Source: Novipirellula aureliae
Lineage (GTDB): Bacteria; Planctomycetota; Planctomycetia; Pirellulales; Pirellulaceae
NCBI RefSeq assembly: GCF_007860185.1
Contig: NZ_SJPY01000003.1
Location: 62,001-126,000 of the forward strand
DNA length: 64,000 nucleotides
Direction: 5' to 3'
The notes beneath the pieces were generated by a model, which ran no database searches, was not told the DNA's origin, and worked only from the letters and a program-made list of their open reading frames with translations. Made by a program: the position numbers and the translations under genes. Below, piece after piece: positions 3,358 through 46,722 of the stretch. The first letter of the stretch is position 1, and every line of letters starts with the position of its first letter.

Positions 3358-3718
3358 ACTCCTTCTCGTGCTCCTTCTCGTACTCGTGCTCGTGCTCCTA
3401 CTCGTGCTCGTACTCGTGCTTGAAGTGTCGTGGGCGTCCGAACGCGAGCACGAGTGCTATTCTATTGAGCACGAGTACGAGTACCATTTCATTGAGCACG
3501 AGCACGAGTACCATTTCATTGAGCACGAGCACGAGTACCATTTCATTGAGTACGAGTACGAGTACGAGCACCATTTCATTGAGTACGAGTACGAGTACGA
3601 GCACCATTTCATTGAGTACGAGTACGAGTACCATTTCATTGAGCACGAGCACGAGCACGAGCACGAGTACGAGGACCGTTTCATTGAGCACGAGTACCAG
3701 CACGAGTTACTTGCTAAT
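3358..3718. repeat. inverted array of GAGYAC hexamers with CATTTCATT spacers
   Basis: This sits in the 810-base spacer between two divergent genes. The left part (about 3358-3422) is a run of CTCGTG/CTCGTA/CTCCT hexamers; the right part (about 3443-3718) is the reverse complement type, runs of two to five GAGCAC or GAGTAC hexamers separated by seven nearly identical 9-mers CATTTCATT (one is CGTTTCATT). Because unit lengths are multiples of three, both strands carry long open frames with repeats such as EHEYE, STSTS and LVLVL; these are products of the repeat, not evidence for genes. The two arms can pair into a long cruciform or RNA hairpin. The rest of the spacer shows nothing convincing. 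Confidence 0.9.
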
Positions 3719-3977
3719 CTTGGATCCGATTAGCGAGAAGTGTCGAAAATCTGAGTTTTTGGCGGGGGGGGGAGAGCTGCGAATGCGGTTTAACGACTAG
3801 ATCATTGAGCACCCAAGAAAACTCTGGATATGAATTGCACTGCCCGAAGCCGCCCATTTGCATTAAAATCGAAATTGAACGATCTGTCTCGCTTCCCATT
3901 GACTATTCTCATTGACTCGATCTATGTCTTCGCCATTGCCTTTATTTAACCAACGTCAAGCCAAGAGGTGGCTGCCG

Positions 3978-6105: not shown

Positions 6106-6909
6106 GCTCTACAGAAGAATTTGTGGGTAAAAAGGAAGTCGCGGAAGTTTTTTTGGGGTCATGGTAGTCGCGATACCCATTGCCACACTTGCTCGACTCC
6201 CTCGATGCCTCGGAACAAGAAGCGACGCCGATCGAACATCACCTTGATGACCGCGAACGGTGTTTCGCCGAAATGACGGCGGCGACGGTACGCGATCTTG
6301 GACTCCTCCTTCGGCCTCTTGGCTCGGTGCCGACGATGGGCCGATTCGTGAACATCATCGATCACTTCTCGACCGACGTCGCATGGTTTCCAGGCTGGAG
6401 GCCGACATATCCTTGCCGGTGGTGTAAGCCACCGAATCCAAGGCGTTTAGGACGCCGCAAGGCCGGAGGCCGATACATCGATCGCGGGTGTGTCGCCCTC
6501 CGGGCGAGTGGTTCGGTTTCATCCATTTCGGTGGCTCACGCCACCGGCAAGGATGTTTCGGCCTCCGGCCTGTGGATCGTTTTGGCCTCCGGCCTGTGGG
6601 GCGTTTCGGCCTCCGGCCTGTGGGGCGATGGTGCAACTATCCACGGATCGAAGGGGCACGCCACCGGCAGCGGATGTTTCGGCCTCGGGGCTAGCTCTGC
6701 TGAGGAGCAACTTGCTTAGGGACAACGGGGTCAGGGAGGGAAGGATGTTTTGCTTGGCCTTGATAAAACCACTTGTTTTGCCGAGGTTTGTTTTTGAACG
6801 TTCGATTGCCGATACACCGAAAACATCCTTTTTGCCCAGCCGTGCCTGAAAGACCTACCCTTCGGTACTTGGGATGGATGAATCAACCCACGGATTCTTC
6901 GCTGGAGCC
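6106..6909. repeat. long dispersed repeat element, expanded copy
   Basis: The first 42 bases (6106-6147) match 27661-27701 and 57791-57832 almost exactly, and the last 68 bases (6842-6909, including TACCCTTCGGTACTTGGGAT) match 27861-27927, so the 804-base stretch is a longer version of the 267-base element at 27661. The extra middle is built from GC-rich units such as TTTCGGCCTCCGGCCTGTGG, repeated tandemly at about 6557-6625 and present in inverted form at 6388 and 6463. Open frames here, such as 6180-6719, have repetitive low-complexity translations and no recognisable motif, so I treat the whole 5931-6944 spacer as gene-free. It may be the remains of a mobile element. Confidence 0.75.
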
Positions 6910-25202: not shown

Positions 25203-25307
25203 CTAGCCCGGCTAATACGCAGACTGTTTTTCGAGCAATGAACGTAAACGCTTGAAGGCGTAGACGTTAGCAAAACAATTTGCAAGTCCATGAATCATCC
25301 GGGCTAG
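25203..25307. repeat. 105-base TIR element, copy A
   Basis: The ends are CTAGCCCGG and a matching ATCATCCGGGCTAG; the left end has drifted (CTAATACGC in place of ATGATTCGC). The interior, including ACTGTTTTTCGAGCAATGAA and the GTAAACGCTTGAAGGCG hairpin, is nearly identical to copies at 40906-41010 and the right end of 43909-44332. The element is too short to encode anything and looks like a MITE or REP-like unit. Confidence 0.85.
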
Positions 25308-25430
25308 GCGACCTTGCTTGCGGCGACGAATCATTCCAATCGCTCCCATCGCCCAGCCGAGCCGAGGAACTCGGCGAGGAACTTGGCTTGGGGTCGGATG
25401 TCACGGCAGTAATGGTGGTGTTGTCGAAGA

Positions 25431-25547
25431 CATGGAACGATGACATGGAACGATGACATGGAACGATGACATGGAACGATGGCATGGAACGATGACATGG
25501 AACGATGACATGGAACGATGACATGGAACGATGACATGGAACGATCA
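25431..25547. repeat. 13-base minisatellite, nine copies
   Basis: CATGGAACGATGA begins at 25431, 25444, 25457, 25470, 25483, 25496, 25509, 25522 and 25535, with one base change in the fourth unit. Since 13 is not a multiple of three, the same peptide pattern appears in all frames. It lies 350 bases before the symporter gene. Confidence 0.95.
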
Positions 25548-25896
25548 GTTGCGGCCAACGGTCGCATGACGGGTCATGAAGTAGGCAACGTCTGTGAAAA
25601 ACGACACCAACAACGCCGTTGGCGGCGATCAGCGATTCGCCCGAAAATCATTCTCCGTTCCCCGTCCTATCGGACGTGTAGGTGGCCCCTTTTATCCAAA
25701 GGGGGTCGTACAACAACGAAATTGCAATTCTTGTCTGGTGATAGTCAATGGGACCTTACAGTAGTAGAATCAGCCTCTATCATTTGGCGATCGTCGCCTT
25801 GTGCTCCCGAATACGTCAGTAAAACAATTGACGTCTGGAGCAAAAGGCGACGATGAGTCACTGCATCGAGCATTCATTATTCACGAGTTCATAATC

Positions 25897-27660: not shown

Positions 27661-27927
27661 GCTCTTCCGAAGAATTAGTGGGTGAAAAGAAAGTTGCGGA
27701 AGTTTTTTTGGGGGCATGGCAGTCGCGATACCCATTGCCACTCTTGCTCGACTTCCTCGGTTTCCTCGGTGCCTCTCCCTCGATGACTCGGAGCAAGAAG
27801 CGACGCAGATCGAACGTCACTTCTCGACCAACGTCGCATTGTTTCGGCCTCCGGCCTGCGGTGCCTGGAAAATCTACCCTTCGGTACTTGGGATGGATGA
27901 ATCAAGCCACGGATTCTTTTGGCGAGG
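27661..27927. repeat. long dispersed repeat element, compact copy
   Basis: This 267-base copy shares its left 190 bases with 6106-6290 and its right 68 bases with 6842-6909, including TACCCTTCGGTACTTGGGAT. It carries one copy of the TTTCGGCCTCCGGCCTG unit at 27841. It fills most of the 355-base spacer (27589-27943) between the symporter and the minus-strand Minf_1886 gene; frames within it are repeat-derived. Confidence 0.8.
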
Positions 27928-39625: not shown

Positions 39626-40909
39626 ATGCAAATGACTTATCAATCTGCTCTTTTGGAGCGTTTCAGCCAACGAAAAAGCTGTCGCGTTTGCCTTCGCGTG
39701 CTTGTTTTCAGTGGTTTAACACTGGGAGTGATCTCGCTAGCGGATGCCCAGAACCCGTCTTCAGGGATGGGATTACCGCCTGGACTTGCTGCTGGGGCGA
39801 CTCCGCCAAGTTTGCAACAACCGCCGAGCGGACAATCTGCGACCGCTATGGCCCAAACTCCGCAAAGCCGAGGGCAAGGTGAAGTGACCGCTGGCGGCCA
39901 ATTGCCTCGTGCTGCTGGCCAGGAGCATCGGGTGTACGACTTGACCCCCTATACTCGCTATTTAACCAAGCAAGATCATCCGGAACAGGCGATTGTCGAT
40001 TGGATTTTGCGAGAAACCGGCACCGATATTTGGTTTTCCGAACCGTTCGGGTTTATGAACGCAACGCGAGATAGTTTGTCGGTCTATCACACGCCCGAAG
40101 TCCACCAAGTGATCGCTGGCATCGTCGACCGTTTTGTCGCGGGCGAGGTCGAGCCTCAGATCATGCACCTGCGTCTAATGACCGTTGGCAATCCAAACTG
40201 GCGGGCCAGAGCCCATATGTTGATGACCCACGTGCCCGTCGATTCGCCTGGCGTCCAAGCTTGGTTGTTGAGCAAAGAAAACGCGGCAATGGTTTTAAAC
40301 ATGCTTCGCCAACGCACCGACGCACGCGAGGTCCAGGGGGTCGATATGCCGGTGTTTAACGGGCAAACCGAACGAATCGCTCAAACCCGTGGACGCAACT
40401 ATGTGCGAAATGTTCGCGAATCACCTAACGGATGGCCGCCATACGAACCGGAAACTGGCGAAGTCCAGGAAGGGTACCAATTGGCGTTAAGCCCCCTTTT
40501 GAGCACCGATGGCCGTATCATCGACTGTATGATCAAGGCGGATATCGACCAAGTGGACAAGTTGAATCATGTCGATTTGGAGTTGCCGCTTCGTAACCAG
40601 CAAGTTCATCGCACCCGAATCGATGTGCCGCAGGTCGTTAGTTGGCGATTGCACGAGCGTTTTCGCTGGGAATCGGACAAAGTCTTGTTGCTTTCGTGCG
40701 GTGTTGTTGCCAGCCCCGAGCGGACAGGTGGATCGTCGCTGTTGAACTTGGACATGTTGACCGGTACGACCACAGGCCGTGCGGATGCACTCCTGTTTAT
40801 CGCATTCCGAGGCCGAGCTTCGGAAAACTTGCAAGCCCCAGCCGCTAGCAGTGCACCGATACGATCGGCAGCCAACCCGTATGGCGGATCGAATCGCGGG
40901 CGTTACTAG
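39626..40909 (+). CDS. secreted protein, possibly secretin-like
   Basis: A 427-residue protein with a signal peptide (CLRVLVFSGLTLGVISLADA, cleavage before QNPS), then a Pro/Gln/Gly-rich linker. The main part, VYDLTPYTRYL ... LSVYHTPEVHQVIAGIVDRF, resembles the secretin N0/STN-type domains of GspD; the later beta part (LALSPLLSTDGRIIDCMIKA) fits but no classical secretin C-terminal pore motif is obvious. Starts at ATG 39626, with a second ATG two codons later. Its TAG stop falls inside the left end of a 105-base TIR element that begins at 40906, so the last residues or stop may have been set by the insertion. Confidence 0.7.
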   Translation: MQMTYQSALLERFSQRKSCRVCLRVLVFSGLTLGVISLADAQNPSSGMGLPPGLAAGATPPSLQQPPSGQSATAMAQTPQSRGQGEVTAGGQLPRAAGQEHRVYDLTPYTRYLTKQDHPEQAIVDWILRETGTDIWFSEPFGFMNATRDSLSVYHTPEVHQVIAGIVDRFVAGEVEPQIMHLRLMTVGNPNWRARAHMLMTHVPVDSPGVQAWLLSKENAAMVLNMLRQRTDAREVQGVDMPVFNGQTERIAQTRGRNYVRNVRESPNGWPPYEPETGEVQEGYQLALSPLLSTDGRIIDCMIKADIDQVDKLNHVDLELPLRNQQVHRTRIDVPQVVSWRLHERFRWESDKVLLLSCGVVASPERTGGSSLLNLDMLTGTTTGRADALLFIAFRGRASENLQAPAASSAPIRSAANPYGGSNRGRY

Positions 40910-41010
40910 CCCGGATGATTCGCAGACTGTCTTTCGAGCAATGAACGTAAACGCTTTAAGGCGTAGACGTTAGCAAAACAATTTGCAAGCCCATGAATCA
41001 TCCGGGCTAG
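40906..41010. repeat. 105-base TIR element, copy B
   Basis: The ends are perfect 16-base inverted repeats, CTAGCCCGGATGATTC and GAATCATCCGGGCTAG. The interior matches copy A (25203-25307). The TAG at 40907-40909 is the stop codon of the upstream gene. Confidence 0.92.
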
Positions 41011-41173
41011 GCGATCGATCGGGTAGGCGGCGGAGTCGTAATGTCACTCGTAACGGATTGGATTGCGTTGTGCGTAGGCATCGTCTCATTGTTTCGTCGC
41101 GACGACGCAATTCACCCTCACACGAAGCCAGGGCTCGAGAGGAGAGCCGTAAAGCGAGCCTTTAGCGAGCTCT

Positions 41174-41266
41174 TCTGGCAGGGTTCTCTGGGCAGGGTTC
41201 TCTGGGCAGGGTTCTCTGGGCAGGGTTCTCTGGGCAGGGTTCTCTGGGCAGGGTTCTCTGGGCAGG
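41174..41266. repeat. 14-base minisatellite, about six copies
   Basis: CAGGGTTCTCTGGG recurs with period 14 from 41179, 41193, 41207, 41221, 41235 and 41249. It lies 250 bases upstream of the ketosynthase gene. The whole spacer 40910-41514 shows no gene. Confidence 0.93.
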
Positions 41267-41514
41267 TCGAACCCCGTGACGCCCAAACCCAAACGCAAGT
41301 TCGAACATCGCTTCGCTGGTTCGACTTTGCCTAACAAGTTTGGGGTGATTGGCATTGTCGCGGTAAGTTGCCTTGGGACTCGAAAGCACTGGCAAAATTA
41401 GCGAATTCGCCCCCCTCAAAGAATTCTCACAATTCGTTTAGAATCGGGTCTTGTCAGAATCGACCCACTTAATTCACCTTAGCGAAACAACCGGCCGTGG
41501 CCGTGACCTCTTTT

Positions 41515-42831: not shown

Positions 42832-43752
42832 TTGACGGATATTGATAACTTGCCCAGCCGTTCCGACGGCGAACGAACGTGCCACGTTTCGGTCATGCCC
42901 GATGAGGTGACTCAGTGGTTGATCGAAGCATCGCCCGAAACGATTATCGACGGCACCTATGGCGGCGGCGGCCACAGTCGCTTGCTACTTGATCAGTTGC
43001 CGGTTGGACGAGGCCGAGTGATTGGACTTGATCGCGATCCGAGTGTGGCGTTGCGAGTCGAGTCCGAAACCCATGATCCTCGGTTGACCGTTTTTGTCGC
43101 CAGTTACGAGCAGACACCCAAGGCGCTTGCCCAATTCGACTTGGCACATGCCGACGCAATGGTTTTAGATTTGGGGTTGTCAAGCGACCAATTGGCCGAT
43201 CGTGAGCGGGGATTTAGTTTTACGCAAAACGGGCCTTTGGATCTACGTTTTGATCCTGAGAACGGCGTTCCGGCCAGTCGCTGGTTGGCCTCCCATGACG
43301 AGAAACAGATTGCTGATGCGATCTATCAGTATGGAGAAGAACGCTTCAGTCGGCGAATTGCCCGTGCAATCGTCGCTCGGCAACGAGAACGAAATCCGGT
43401 GGACACCGTTGATGACCTGGTCGAGATTTGTCGGCGCTGCGTACCGCGAAGTCGCAATCACGATATTCATCCTGCGACCCGAACGTTTCAAGCGCTTCGC
43501 ATCGCAGTAAACGATGAACTCGGCATCTTAGAGCGAACGCTCGCAGCAGCACCTGGTTGGTTATCACCAGGCGGACGGATTGCCATCATCAGTTTCCATT
43601 CGCTCGAAGATCGCATCGTCAAACACGCATTTCGAGACGACGATCGCTGGGAAATCTTGACAAAGAAACCGCTCCGCCCGAGCGAGTCGGAAGTTGCAAA
43701 CAACTCAAGAAGTCGAAGTGCAAAAATGCGAGTCGCCGCCCGAAGAGCGTAG
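42832..43752 (+). CDS. rsmH: 16S rRNA m4C1402 methyltransferase
   Basis: Methylates C1402 of 16S rRNA. The sequence is complete: CHVSVMPDEVTQWL, the SAM motif IDGTYGGGGHSRLLL, LDRDPSVAL, ADAMVLDLGLSSDQL, HPATRTFQALRIAVNDEL and the end GRIAIISFHSLEDRIVKHAF, then LRPSESEVANNSRSRSAKMR. 306 residues is normal. The start must lie before CHVSVM; TTG 42832 is taken, with a TTG at 42850 as the alternative. It probably shares a transcript with the ketosynthase-like gene six bases before. The usual mra/mur partners do not follow; a repeat-filled spacer does. Confidence 0.94.
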   Translation: MTDIDNLPSRSDGERTCHVSVMPDEVTQWLIEASPETIIDGTYGGGGHSRLLLDQLPVGRGRVIGLDRDPSVALRVESETHDPRLTVFVASYEQTPKALAQFDLAHADAMVLDLGLSSDQLADRERGFSFTQNGPLDLRFDPENGVPASRWLASHDEKQIADAIYQYGEERFSRRIARAIVARQRERNPVDTVDDLVEICRRCVPRSRNHDIHPATRTFQALRIAVNDELGILERTLAAAPGWLSPGGRIAIISFHSLEDRIVKHAFRDDDRWEILTKKPLRPSESEVANNSRSRSAKMRVAARRA

Positions 43753-43945
43753 ATGGGGACGGGGTACTCAAATGCTTCGCTTTTGAGCAGCTTGAGATTA
43801 TCTCCTTTTCGTTCCTGCCTTCGTCAAATACGCCGTTGGCGTATTGAAGGAAGAAGCGAACAAAAACAACGCATCACAATTGTCATCGAGTCGATCTTTT
43901 TGAGCACGTTAGCCCGGATGATTCATTAGCCGTTTTGCCGATAGC

Positions 43946-44061
43946 GGCCTGCTGATTTAATCGTTTAACGCTTAGCCGAAGGCGTCAGCTTTTCCGTAAG
44001 CGATCGCCTACGGCTTGTCGTTAAACAATCAGTCGAGTCAAACCGACTAAATCAGCAGGCC
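43946..44061. repeat. 116-base palindromic unit 1
   Basis: GGCCTGCTGATTTA (43946-43959) pairs with TAAATCAGCAGGCC (44048-44061). The interior is palindromic too (GTTTAACGCTTAGCCGAAGGCG against CGCCTACGGCTTGTCGTTAAAC, four mismatches). Confidence 0.9.
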
Positions 44062-44104
44062 GATAGCCACGGCTGCGTGATTTGTCGTGTGAACCGTGGC
44101 TAAC

Positions 44105-44220
44105 GGGCTGTCGATTTAATCGTTTAACGCTTAGCCGAAGGCGTCAGCTTTTCTATAAGCGATCGCCTACGGCTTGTCGTTAAACAATCAGTCGAGTCAA
44201 ACCGATTAAATCGACAGCCC
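44105..44220. repeat. 116-base palindromic unit 2
   Basis: GGGCTGTCGATTTAATCG (44105-44122) has a perfect reverse complement at 44203-44220. The interior differs from unit 1 in only a few bases. Lengths of the two units are the same, 116. Confidence 0.92.
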
Positions 44221-44448
44221 ACTAACGCCAAAACGGGTAATACGCAGACTGTTTTTCGAGCAATGAACGTAAACGCTTGAAGGCGCAGACGTTAGCAAAA
44301 CAATTTGCAAGCCCATGAATCATCCGGGCTAGGCTGTGTCGACGGGCAGGAGATCCGGCATCCACAGCTTACCGATCTGCAAACCATCCCTCGGTTGCTT
44401 GCCAGGTCTGCACCGCTATCGCAGCCAGGATCAGCTTGCGGTACTCGA

Positions 44449-46722
44449 TTAGGCCAAACCCCAGCGGCGGCGGAGGGTCCATTCGATGATCAATGCAGTG
44501 GCGAAGAGAGCGAACATCAGCCATCCGCTTAGCGGATCGTCGCCGACCGTGTACTTCTCCACCACCGGTGCTTCGGCCTGCTTTCGTCGCTCCGATATCC
44601 GCTCGATCAATGCGTCCATTTGCTCATACGAGAACGCGTCGCCACCATGTTCGGAGGTGATCTTGGCTAACTGTCTCAGGTAAACAGGGTCCGCCATCGG
44701 TGTCGCCATTTCTCGACTCTGATCAATCACTTGGAACGCCAACTGTTCCGCTTGCACCGACGAATTGGGTTCACTCGGACTTACCTTGAGCCGGTAATAG
44801 CCAGGTTCCAGTGTTGGGATCGAGCCACTGATCGAGCGAAAATTCGGCTCGCTTCGTTCAGACAAATCGGAAATCGCAATCACACGATCCGTCTCGTCAA
44901 CAATTTCGGCGGACAATCGAACGGGGGTTTCTGTCGCTGATAGAGTGGCAAGGGAAGCTTGGAATTTGGTTTGGGCATTGGTTGCAAAACGCCTGGATTC
45001 GAGTTCAATCACGATCTGCTCGCTGGTGTTTTCCTCGCGTGAAAGTAGCCATAGCATGGCTTGTCTCCAGAAACGCCGATGGGCTTCACTGTGTCCTTCA
45101 CGCCACCATCGCCATGTGGAGTCGAATGCGATCGCAGCGGTGCGACCTCGTCCAAATTCACCAACCACCAATAGGGGCTGCTTTTGTGGTGTTTCCAAAA
45201 GGACTTGGACGCCAGGGGCCACTTTCGGACCGACAAATCGATTGGCCCCGAGCAGCGGTGGCAACGAGTCCCATACTTGCTCGGGATCCGAGCTACCCAG
45301 ATTTGTGATCGGATGCGAGCGTGCCAACTCAATCTTCAAAGGCCCCGGAATTTGATCCGCTGCATCGGCTTGAATCTCTTCACTGATATCGCGGCGACGC
45401 GATGCATCCATGCGAATGGGTAATACGTCCGCAAGCGGTGACGAGGCATAGCCTCCCGCGTCATAAGTGTGATAGCCACCGAGCATCATCAGTCCGGCAC
45501 CTGCAGAGACGGCTTCGCGAAGTTTCTCGAGCTGTTCACGCCCGATTGCATCGGCATCGACATCGCCAATGATGTAAATATCATACTTTCCAACGCCGAA
45601 GGAGTTATCCAACGGTATTGGCCATCGCGATGCCGTATCGCTTGGAATCCATTGATACGTCAGATCCAAATCAGGAAATCGTCGAAGCGCCATCCTCAAG
45701 AAACGTTGCTCGTAAAGCGATTCACCTTCGATGTAAAGAATGCGTCCGCCCCCTTCACGAACATTCACGAACGCAGTTTGGCGATTATTGGTTGTCACCC
45801 ATTCACCCGATTGCGTCTCCGCGGCGACTTGCAGTCGGTAGATTCCAGGACGAGGAGCCGTGATTGGGATCGAAACCGCTTGTACGTCGCTAGCCGTCTC
45901 GACCAGGACATGACGTTTGGCAGCCGTCGTCACGTTTCCGCTGCCATCGATCCAACTCACTTCAACGGGAACCGAGATCCCGGCCAAGCCGCGGAGACTA
46001 ACTTGAAAATTGACTTGGAAGTCGTTCCCTGAAAACAGGGAATAGCTTTCGGGCAACGCATCGACGGAGACATCGCGATTACCAGCCGATCCTCCTGTTT
46101 GGCCGATCGGAACGGTCCATAGTGGTACGCCCCAATTCTTCAGCGTTTGCGCCACGCGTTGGGCACCGGTGCCTTGAACCTCAGACGTTTGCGTTCCATC
46201 GCCCATCAAAACCACACCTGCCAACGGCTGGCCTTGCGCAATCGAGATCGCGGATGTCGCGGCGGCATTCAAATCCGTTAACTCGCCCGTCGATTCTAAA
46301 TCATCGAGTGAACTTGGCCCTGGATTGCTTAGTTCGGTTGCGGTTTCGTTGTAGCCAAGCAAGCGAATGTTCATTGAATCCGCCAACGGGGCTAAACCGC
46401 TCGACAATGCCTGCCAAGCTTGTTTTTGATGCGTCCAGCGGTCGGCTTGGTCACCATCGGGCAACGTCATGCTACGAGATGTATCGACGGCCACGACCAA
46501 CGTTGCTTCGGCAGCCGCGGTATCGGTCTTCACCATTCCAGGACGGAACATCGCGACCACCAAAATCAGTGCGGCGAAGGCACGAAAAGCCAACAACCAA
46601 CGTCGTTGAATCGGGTTCTCGGCCGGCGGCGTGACCAGAAACAACACGGTAAAGGCGACCACCGAAGCAACCAAAGCAATGATTGCGGAGTCATAGATTG
46701 GCTCGATCAGGAAAGAGCTCAT
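44449..46722 (-). CDS. VWA-domain membrane protein (DUF58/MoxR cluster member)
   Basis: A 757-residue protein with two N-terminal membrane helices (IIALVASVVAFTVLFLV and WLLAFRAFAALILVVAMF), a von Willebrand A domain (ATLVVAVDTSRSMTLPDGDQ with DxSxS, and LMGDGTQTS), a beta part and a domain of glutamine-amidotransferase type (GRILYIEGESLYEQRF, GLMMLGGYHTYDAGGY). A C-terminal helix (LMFALFATALIIEWTLRRRW) anchors it, so both ends are in the inner membrane. Its ATG overlaps the stop of the BatA-like gene by four bases (ATGA). Together with moxR, DUF58 and the BatA-like gene it forms a tight operon, as in Bacteroides bat and many planctomycetes. Confidence 0.9.
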   Translation of the reverse strand: MSSFLIEPIYDSAIIALVASVVAFTVLFLVTPPAENPIQRRWLLAFRAFAALILVVAMFRPGMVKTDTAAAEATLVVAVDTSRSMTLPDGDQADRWTHQKQAWQALSSGLAPLADSMNIRLLGYNETATELSNPGPSSLDDLESTGELTDLNAAATSAISIAQGQPLAGVVLMGDGTQTSEVQGTGAQRVAQTLKNWGVPLWTVPIGQTGGSAGNRDVSVDALPESYSLFSGNDFQVNFQVSLRGLAGISVPVEVSWIDGSGNVTTAAKRHVLVETASDVQAVSIPITAPRPGIYRLQVAAETQSGEWVTTNNRQTAFVNVREGGGRILYIEGESLYEQRFLRMALRRFPDLDLTYQWIPSDTASRWPIPLDNSFGVGKYDIYIIGDVDADAIGREQLEKLREAVSAGAGLMMLGGYHTYDAGGYASSPLADVLPIRMDASRRRDISEEIQADAADQIPGPLKIELARSHPITNLGSSDPEQVWDSLPPLLGANRFVGPKVAPGVQVLLETPQKQPLLVVGEFGRGRTAAIAFDSTWRWWREGHSEAHRRFWRQAMLWLLSREENTSEQIVIELESRRFATNAQTKFQASLATLSATETPVRLSAEIVDETDRVIAISDLSERSEPNFRSISGSIPTLEPGYYRLKVSPSEPNSSVQAEQLAFQVIDQSREMATPMADPVYLRQLAKITSEHGGDAFSYEQMDALIERISERRKQAEAPVVEKYTVGDDPLSGWLMFALFATALIIEWTLRRRWGLA

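Follow-up and report, generated by a model that had tools for sequence, protein, structure and literature searches.

Bacterial MITEs tend to be presented as straightforward derivatives of a single IS. According to an excerpt of PMC3281130, MITEs are moved by IS elements, and IS1247, a member of the IS1380 family, is 1672 bp long and produces a 5-bp duplication. The outermost component of the locus described here, termed shell A, resembles IS1380 elements and IS-derived MITEs in its inverted ends, its short target duplication and the presence of an autonomous partner in the genome. It differs in that the duplication is 4 bp long and nearly always CTAG-like, and in that its interior consists of other mobile palindromes and not of IS remnants. 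A second comparison is offered by REP, BIME and REPIN sequences with RAYT, as outlined in excerpts of PMC2817692 and PMC3116915: the stack shares with these their short, many-copy palindromes and mosaic arrangement, but departs from them in its target duplications, in the DDE partner of A and in having no association with RAYT. Thirdly, IS elements are known to insert into REP sequences (excerpt of PMC1525189). Element C of the stack is likewise over-represented in hairpin loops, several of them REP-like, yet it differs in being non-coding, 116 bp long and flanked by a 4-bp duplication. A text search of PMC3733652, on GTAG/CGTC palindromes, gave 0 occurrences of CTAG, Rhodopirellula or nested, and among the open-licence papers listed in literature searches, judged by title or abstract opening, none described such stacks. 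What is unusual is the CTAG-jointed stack, which also exists in another genus.

Layout of the stack

The window, meaning the whole 64,000-nt stretch of Novipirellula aureliae DNA that was analysed (contig NZ_SJPY01000003.1, positions 62,001 to 126,000), contains the stack at 43909-44332. To its left lies an MraW-type methyltransferase gene that ends at 43752, and to its right an opposite-strand gene (44449-46722) with a glutamine-amidotransferase-like domain. The nested order, from outside to inside, is A(B(C D C)), and two solo copies of A lie elsewhere in the window:

43909..43924, + strand: TTAG target copy at the left border (43909-43912), followed by the left terminal repeat of shell A, CCCGGATGATTC (43913-43924); from exact pattern match and sequence
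43925..43940, + strand: left arm of palindrome B (ATTAGCCGTTTTG..); from inverted pair I1 and an empty B in locus L080
43946..44061, + strand: first C element, 116 bp (118 with the bordering C..G); from inverted pairs, pattern matches and extracted copies
44064..44102, no strand: palindrome D (TAGCCACGG..CCGTGGCTA), between both C copies; from sequence, as part of inverted pair I2, and from other stacks
44105..44220, + strand: second C element, 116 bp, with perfect 18-base ends; from inverted pairs, pattern matches and extracted copies
44226..44241, + strand: right arm of palindrome B (CGCCAAAACGGGTAAT); from inverted pair I1
44242..44314, + strand: filler F of shell A, about 73 bp; from sequence and blastn against the IS1380 element
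44317..44332, - strand: terminal repeat at the right end of shell A (44317-44328), followed by the CTAG target copy on that side (44329-44332); from exact pattern match
25203..25307, + strand: solo A containing filler F and bordered on each side by CTAG; from sequence and A-unit search
40906..41010, + strand: solo A containing filler F and bordered on each side by CTAG; from sequence and A-unit search

An earlier note had described nested palindromic elements at this locus, and each part of that description that was checked holds at its place. The outer ends equal a 105-base element that is matched in the window at 25203-25311 and 40906-41014 (92-94% to the reference copy), a second inverted pair lies inside them (43925-43966 / 44200-44241), and the two inner units, both C, have the same length of 116 bp. 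The 17-nt outer arms (43910-43926 / 44315-44331) are 100% complementary, and the two interior copies share a 120-nt stretch that is 92% identical, with starts 159 bp apart. Folded as single-stranded DNA, the stack reaches -124.8 kcal/mol; shuffled sequences average -63.1 (z -14), and 0/100 of them do as well.

Other repeats occur in the window. Left of the stack, at about 43771-43853 (around AATACGCCGTTGGCGTATT), it is 84% identical over 74 bp to the left flank of another stack (L033), and because of this match the stretch seems to be a further dispersed repeat. Short tandem arrays lie at 41177-41274, 25425-25558 and 3440-3736, with units of 14, 13 and about 27-33 bp, respectively. Two pairs of stretches 21 kb apart (6106-6204 / 27661-27759 and 6836-6899 / 27855-27918) are about 90% identical, and a GGCCTCCGGCC palindrome is found near them.

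Shell A and its candidate mover

In the whole genome the terminal pattern of A has 112 + 111 matches, compared with 1 + 3 for the reversed control, and a search with the whole unit gave at least 40 long matches to the 105 bp (40 of 144 candidates scored). These 105 bp count a CTAG at each side; without them the element is 97 bp. Identical flanking 4-mers were found in 46 of 70 end-paired candidates (39 CTAG, 5 CTAA, 2 TTAG), a set that still includes false pairs with poor ends (e.g. L037, L043, L052, L080, L082); several of the 24 candidates without identical 4-mers are such false pairs. The CTAA and TTAG pairs are true direct repeats as opposed to extended palindromes. The commonest lengths are 257 bp (20 candidates), 97 bp (17) and 416 bp (7). 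The window's own A has TTAG at one side and CTAG at the other, a minimal A, CTAGCCCGGATGAATCATCCGGGCTAG, is present in L140, and other fillers lie between the A ends in L147 and L152. The solo A at 25203..25307 has the left arm CCCGGCTAATACGC, as if a nested B had been lost through deletion. The targets of A show no preference for hairpins, with 0/59 having 7 or more stem pairs.

A DDE_Tnp_1 profile search of the genome returned four loci, L187-L190. L189 holds a complete 1684-bp IS1380 element that lies between two copies of CTAG; counted with CTAG, its inverted ends are perfect over 21 bp (CTAGCCCGGATTATTCACGAG); its ends, CTAGCCCGGATTATTC, differ from the A ends, CTAGCCCGGATGATTC, at one position in 16. 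The 482-aa ORF of this element is an IS1380 transposase by NCBIfam (NF033539, 287 bits, cut-off 180) and Pfam (DDE_Tnp_1_4, 5e-99). L190 is a partial IS1380 copy with one A-type end; L187 and L188 showed no A-type ends. With DDE_Tnp_1_4, nine matches were found at seven places in the genome, five of which adjoin A-type ends (one end having two mismatches), and the two places below the family cut-off (C5:284k, C7:579k) have no A-type ends beside them. In other genomes this family was matched in 12/13, in 11 of them above the cut-off. Among 30 IS1380 loci fetched from relatives, 14 (five genomes) have paired ends CCCGGATTATTCAC, CCCGGATATTGCATCC, CCCGGATTATGCA or CCCGAACATTGCATCC, which are of CCCGGAT- or CCCGAAC-type, with nine CTAG and five CTAA duplications; the remainder are fragments or have different ends.

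Shell A thus shares terminal repeats and a short, IS-like duplication with a family whose transposase is present in the genome. Judged by these IS1380 ends and the same duplications, including CTAA/TTAG, A is a new IS1380-family MITE, and it is presumably moved in trans by the L189-type IS1380 DDE transposase. The filler F is unlike the IS1380 interior in a blastn comparison, besides the ends and one 10-nt match. IS1380 itself sits at stack joints in L156 and L213; in L156, from the same genome as the window, its end abuts B shortly before a run of N, and in the other case, in genome G234, a complete IS1380 element occupies a CTAG joint with a D-like palindrome beside it. The earlier note had called for a transposase that may move the units, and one was found whose element bears A's ends, though it belongs to the DDE IS1380 family and not to the Y1/REP-associated tyrosine type suggested there. 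Similarly, that no named family fits the units still applies to B, C and D within the searches made, but A belongs to IS1380.

The inner palindromes

The terminal pattern of C matched 155 times forward and 165 times reverse in the 7.27-Mb genome, against 0 + 0 for the reversed control, which corresponds to about 160 copies. Among 93 distinct copies extracted, 92 are 116 bp long and one is 130 bp. With its terminal inverted repeats, fixed length, many copies, target-site duplication and lack of coding capacity, C looks like a second MITE-like family by structure. C occurs in both orientations within A, and its end variants differ between both sides in 32 of 84 classifiable copies.

A script filter found 75 of the 93 copies to adjoin a B-, D- or C-like stretch and 18 to be solo, having left out copies that by eye are possibly solo, two with equal 4-mers (L008, L014) and two with unequal ones (L005, L017). 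Read as C-GG..CC-G, solo C elements have identical flanking 4-mers in 13/18 cases, with three one base off and two two bases off, compared with agreement in 12/306 mismatched copy pairs. Duplicated flanks, proposed earlier as a check, are present for A and for C. When the C targets are joined, 5/18 reach 7 of 8 stem pairs round a four-base loop, compared with 1.5% of window positions and 1.55% of 7,560 neighbouring positions (p = 6e-6), although these five are not fully independent since three lie in one REP-like target family; in L097 and L100, which belong to the five, the duplication is not exact. At 6 stem pairs the figures are 6/18 and 12% (p = 0.016). A palindrome tagged GTAG (GTAGTGGATCTTGTTAAAGATCC) recurs in L190 (674-729 and 957-1012) and in L076, L105, L108 and L130, and in the last three loci its loop carries an inserted C.

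No autonomous partner of C, B or D was found among the fetched IS1380-like loci, nor, using pairs of C ends, in 304 loci. These contain eight pairs of C ends that have equal 4-mers and a spacing of 700-3500 bp; the two longest prove to be distinct C copies on either side of host genes, and the others fall within arrays of C copies (L266, L287; L291 overlaps L287). IS1380-like elements with other ends (CCCGC.., CCTCAATCAAGCG..) were considered as the inner mover and have no match to B, C or D.

B and D are palindromes smaller than C. B has no clear target duplication, and D is also seen in other stacks. The inner core of C, termed E (GTTTAACGGCAAGCCGAAGGCG and its palindromic partner with a variable loop), also occurs by itself in intergenic positions of several other Pirellulaceae genera, with no target duplication visible round the lone copies (e.g. 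L112, L113, L117, L161, L168, L173, L177, L181). Its borders, GTTTAAC..GTTAAAC, appear to resemble the boxes of integron attC sites, which were considered as a candidate identity for E.

Origin and spread of the stacks

A family-wide search of 241 genomes, with two candidates scored per genome, gave a match in 22 including the window's own, which is no count of stacks because many match the inner palindrome E alone. The full C was absent from two genomes of the same genus, one of which has a 33-nt match. A pattern of the B-CTAG-C joint matched 45 stretches in a named genome collection. Of these, 20 were examined: 18 from Neorhodopirellula pilleata Pla100 (Pirellulaceae), one from Rhodopirellula maiorica SM1, and one from an uncultured Pirellulaceae bacterium that is no stack, which leaves 19 stacks; the other 25 are, by title, mostly from other phyla. 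A right B arm is recognisable in 15/19 stacks, and in 15/15 of these there are as many CTAG as joints, with CTAG at the first joint by design of the pattern. A D-like palindrome is present in 12/19, and C D C in 3/19, of which two have both B arms. The N. pilleata stacks include B(C), B(C D) and B(C D C) with CTAG joints and mostly lie within another outer shell: both ends of a different shell, TGCTTTGTC..GACAAAGCA, are present in 13/19 stacks. The place of the C core is taken there by E, by a second palindrome (AACCCGAAGCGTGAGCGAGGGA) or by a further nested one. Round this shell (L238, L239, L253, L257, L261) CTAG usually stands on both sides; inspection by eye shows TTAG at L261 and GTAG in one side-pair of L257.

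The architectures found include A alone, A with an empty or near-empty B, A(B(C)), A(B(C D)), A(B(C D C)) and A(B(C C C)), as well as an array with four C and three D. The 4-mers that border C in 20 single-C composites are mostly one derived pair and not duplications: ATAG/CTAA (11) with its reverse complement TTAG/CTAT (5), followed by CTAG/CTAG (2), TTAG/CTAG (1) and ATAA/CTAA (1). This derived pair, common to 16/20, points to common descent of the composites. A comparison of 495-bp flanks from six copies of A(B(C D C)) gave a single match, between the left flanks of L031 and L033 (84% over 74 bp).

The stack is best explained as a composite non-autonomous transposon that arose by nested insertion, after which composites spread as units. 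We place the probability of this reading at about 0.8, since we infer the movement of the composite as a unit. Shell A, an IS1380-family MITE with palindrome B, would be moved in trans by an IS1380 DDE transposase; C, a 4-bp-duplicating family of its own that is often in hairpin loops, is seated at B's centre, with D as a third palindrome at the joint between C copies. As the CTAG joints suggest, insertion at CTAG would place CTAG on both sides, and these would act as new targets by which the stack could grow. Composites would then spread whole, most simply via the A ends, as the derived borders common to different sites indicate. Because C has unequal end variants in 32/84 copies and lies in both orientations, the composite is no frozen unit. 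Of the earlier suggestion of repeated insertion, or of a MITE or REP family that prefers palindromes, the nested mobile elements and the enrichment of C in palindrome centres are supported; the Y1/REP-associated transposase is not supported.

It is unlikely that each A landed alone and was filled stepwise by B, C and D at every site, so that the composite itself never moved. The target duplication of A would look alike in both cases, A alone and A with a near-empty B exist (L140, L080, L153), and C has its own duplications elsewhere in addition to both orientations in A. However, identical derived, non-duplicated C borders in 16/20 single-C composites, and 20 A elements of the identical length of 257 bp, are unexpected from independent insertions.

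There is only a slight chance that the branched fold itself is selected, as a structured RNA or DNA device in which the B stem closes the hairpins of C, D and C. The fold is very stable, B(C D C) also occurs in N. pilleata, and across 92 C copies there are 57 double changes in 42 pairs (45.5 in shuffles, sd 4.3) and 126 broken cells (139.8, sd 5.6), but this covariation excess stems mostly from three end positions that have two variants. The unequal C ends, the roughly 160 scattered copies and the several architectures also speak against it, and no Rfam family fits, the best match being 23.6 bits against a gathering score of 90. With so many copies, no Rfam family near threshold and slight covariation, the single RNA gene considered earlier is not supported.

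Least probable of all, with hardly any weight left, is that a Y1 tyrosine transposase moves the palindromes as REP-like hairpins: they are short, of high copy number and in mosaic arrays, the genome has 13 Y1_Tnp matches, and core E is a lone palindrome in other genera without visible duplications, but A and C have 4-bp duplications, the DDE partner of A had already weakened this reading for A, and a copy of C lies at 1 of the 13 PF01797 loci (fetched with 1.5 kb on either side), about the expectation from 160 scattered copies in 7.27 Mb. The Y1 transposase loci L128, L132 and L134 bear other, unrelated palindromes (e.g. CCCACGGGGCAAGCCCG arms in L134), which may be the REPs of those transposases.

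Several families are interlocked here as ordered stacks, which are found again in another genus, and the outer shell has a concrete candidate mover. Tentatively, CTAG could be the common joint of several unrelated Pirellulaceae MITE families, each insertion leaving two CTAG targets so that stacks seed themselves, and the B(C..) cassette could be a passenger of different outer transposons in each genus (IS1380-type here, TGCTTTGTC-type in Neorhodopirellula pilleata). If so, these elements would be parasites of parasites, spreading through whichever outer mover is active. The stacks would be a natural example of target sites that seed themselves and of a single transposase that carries elements from other families, and the nested-stack account would explain many palindromic intergenic stretches in these genomes.
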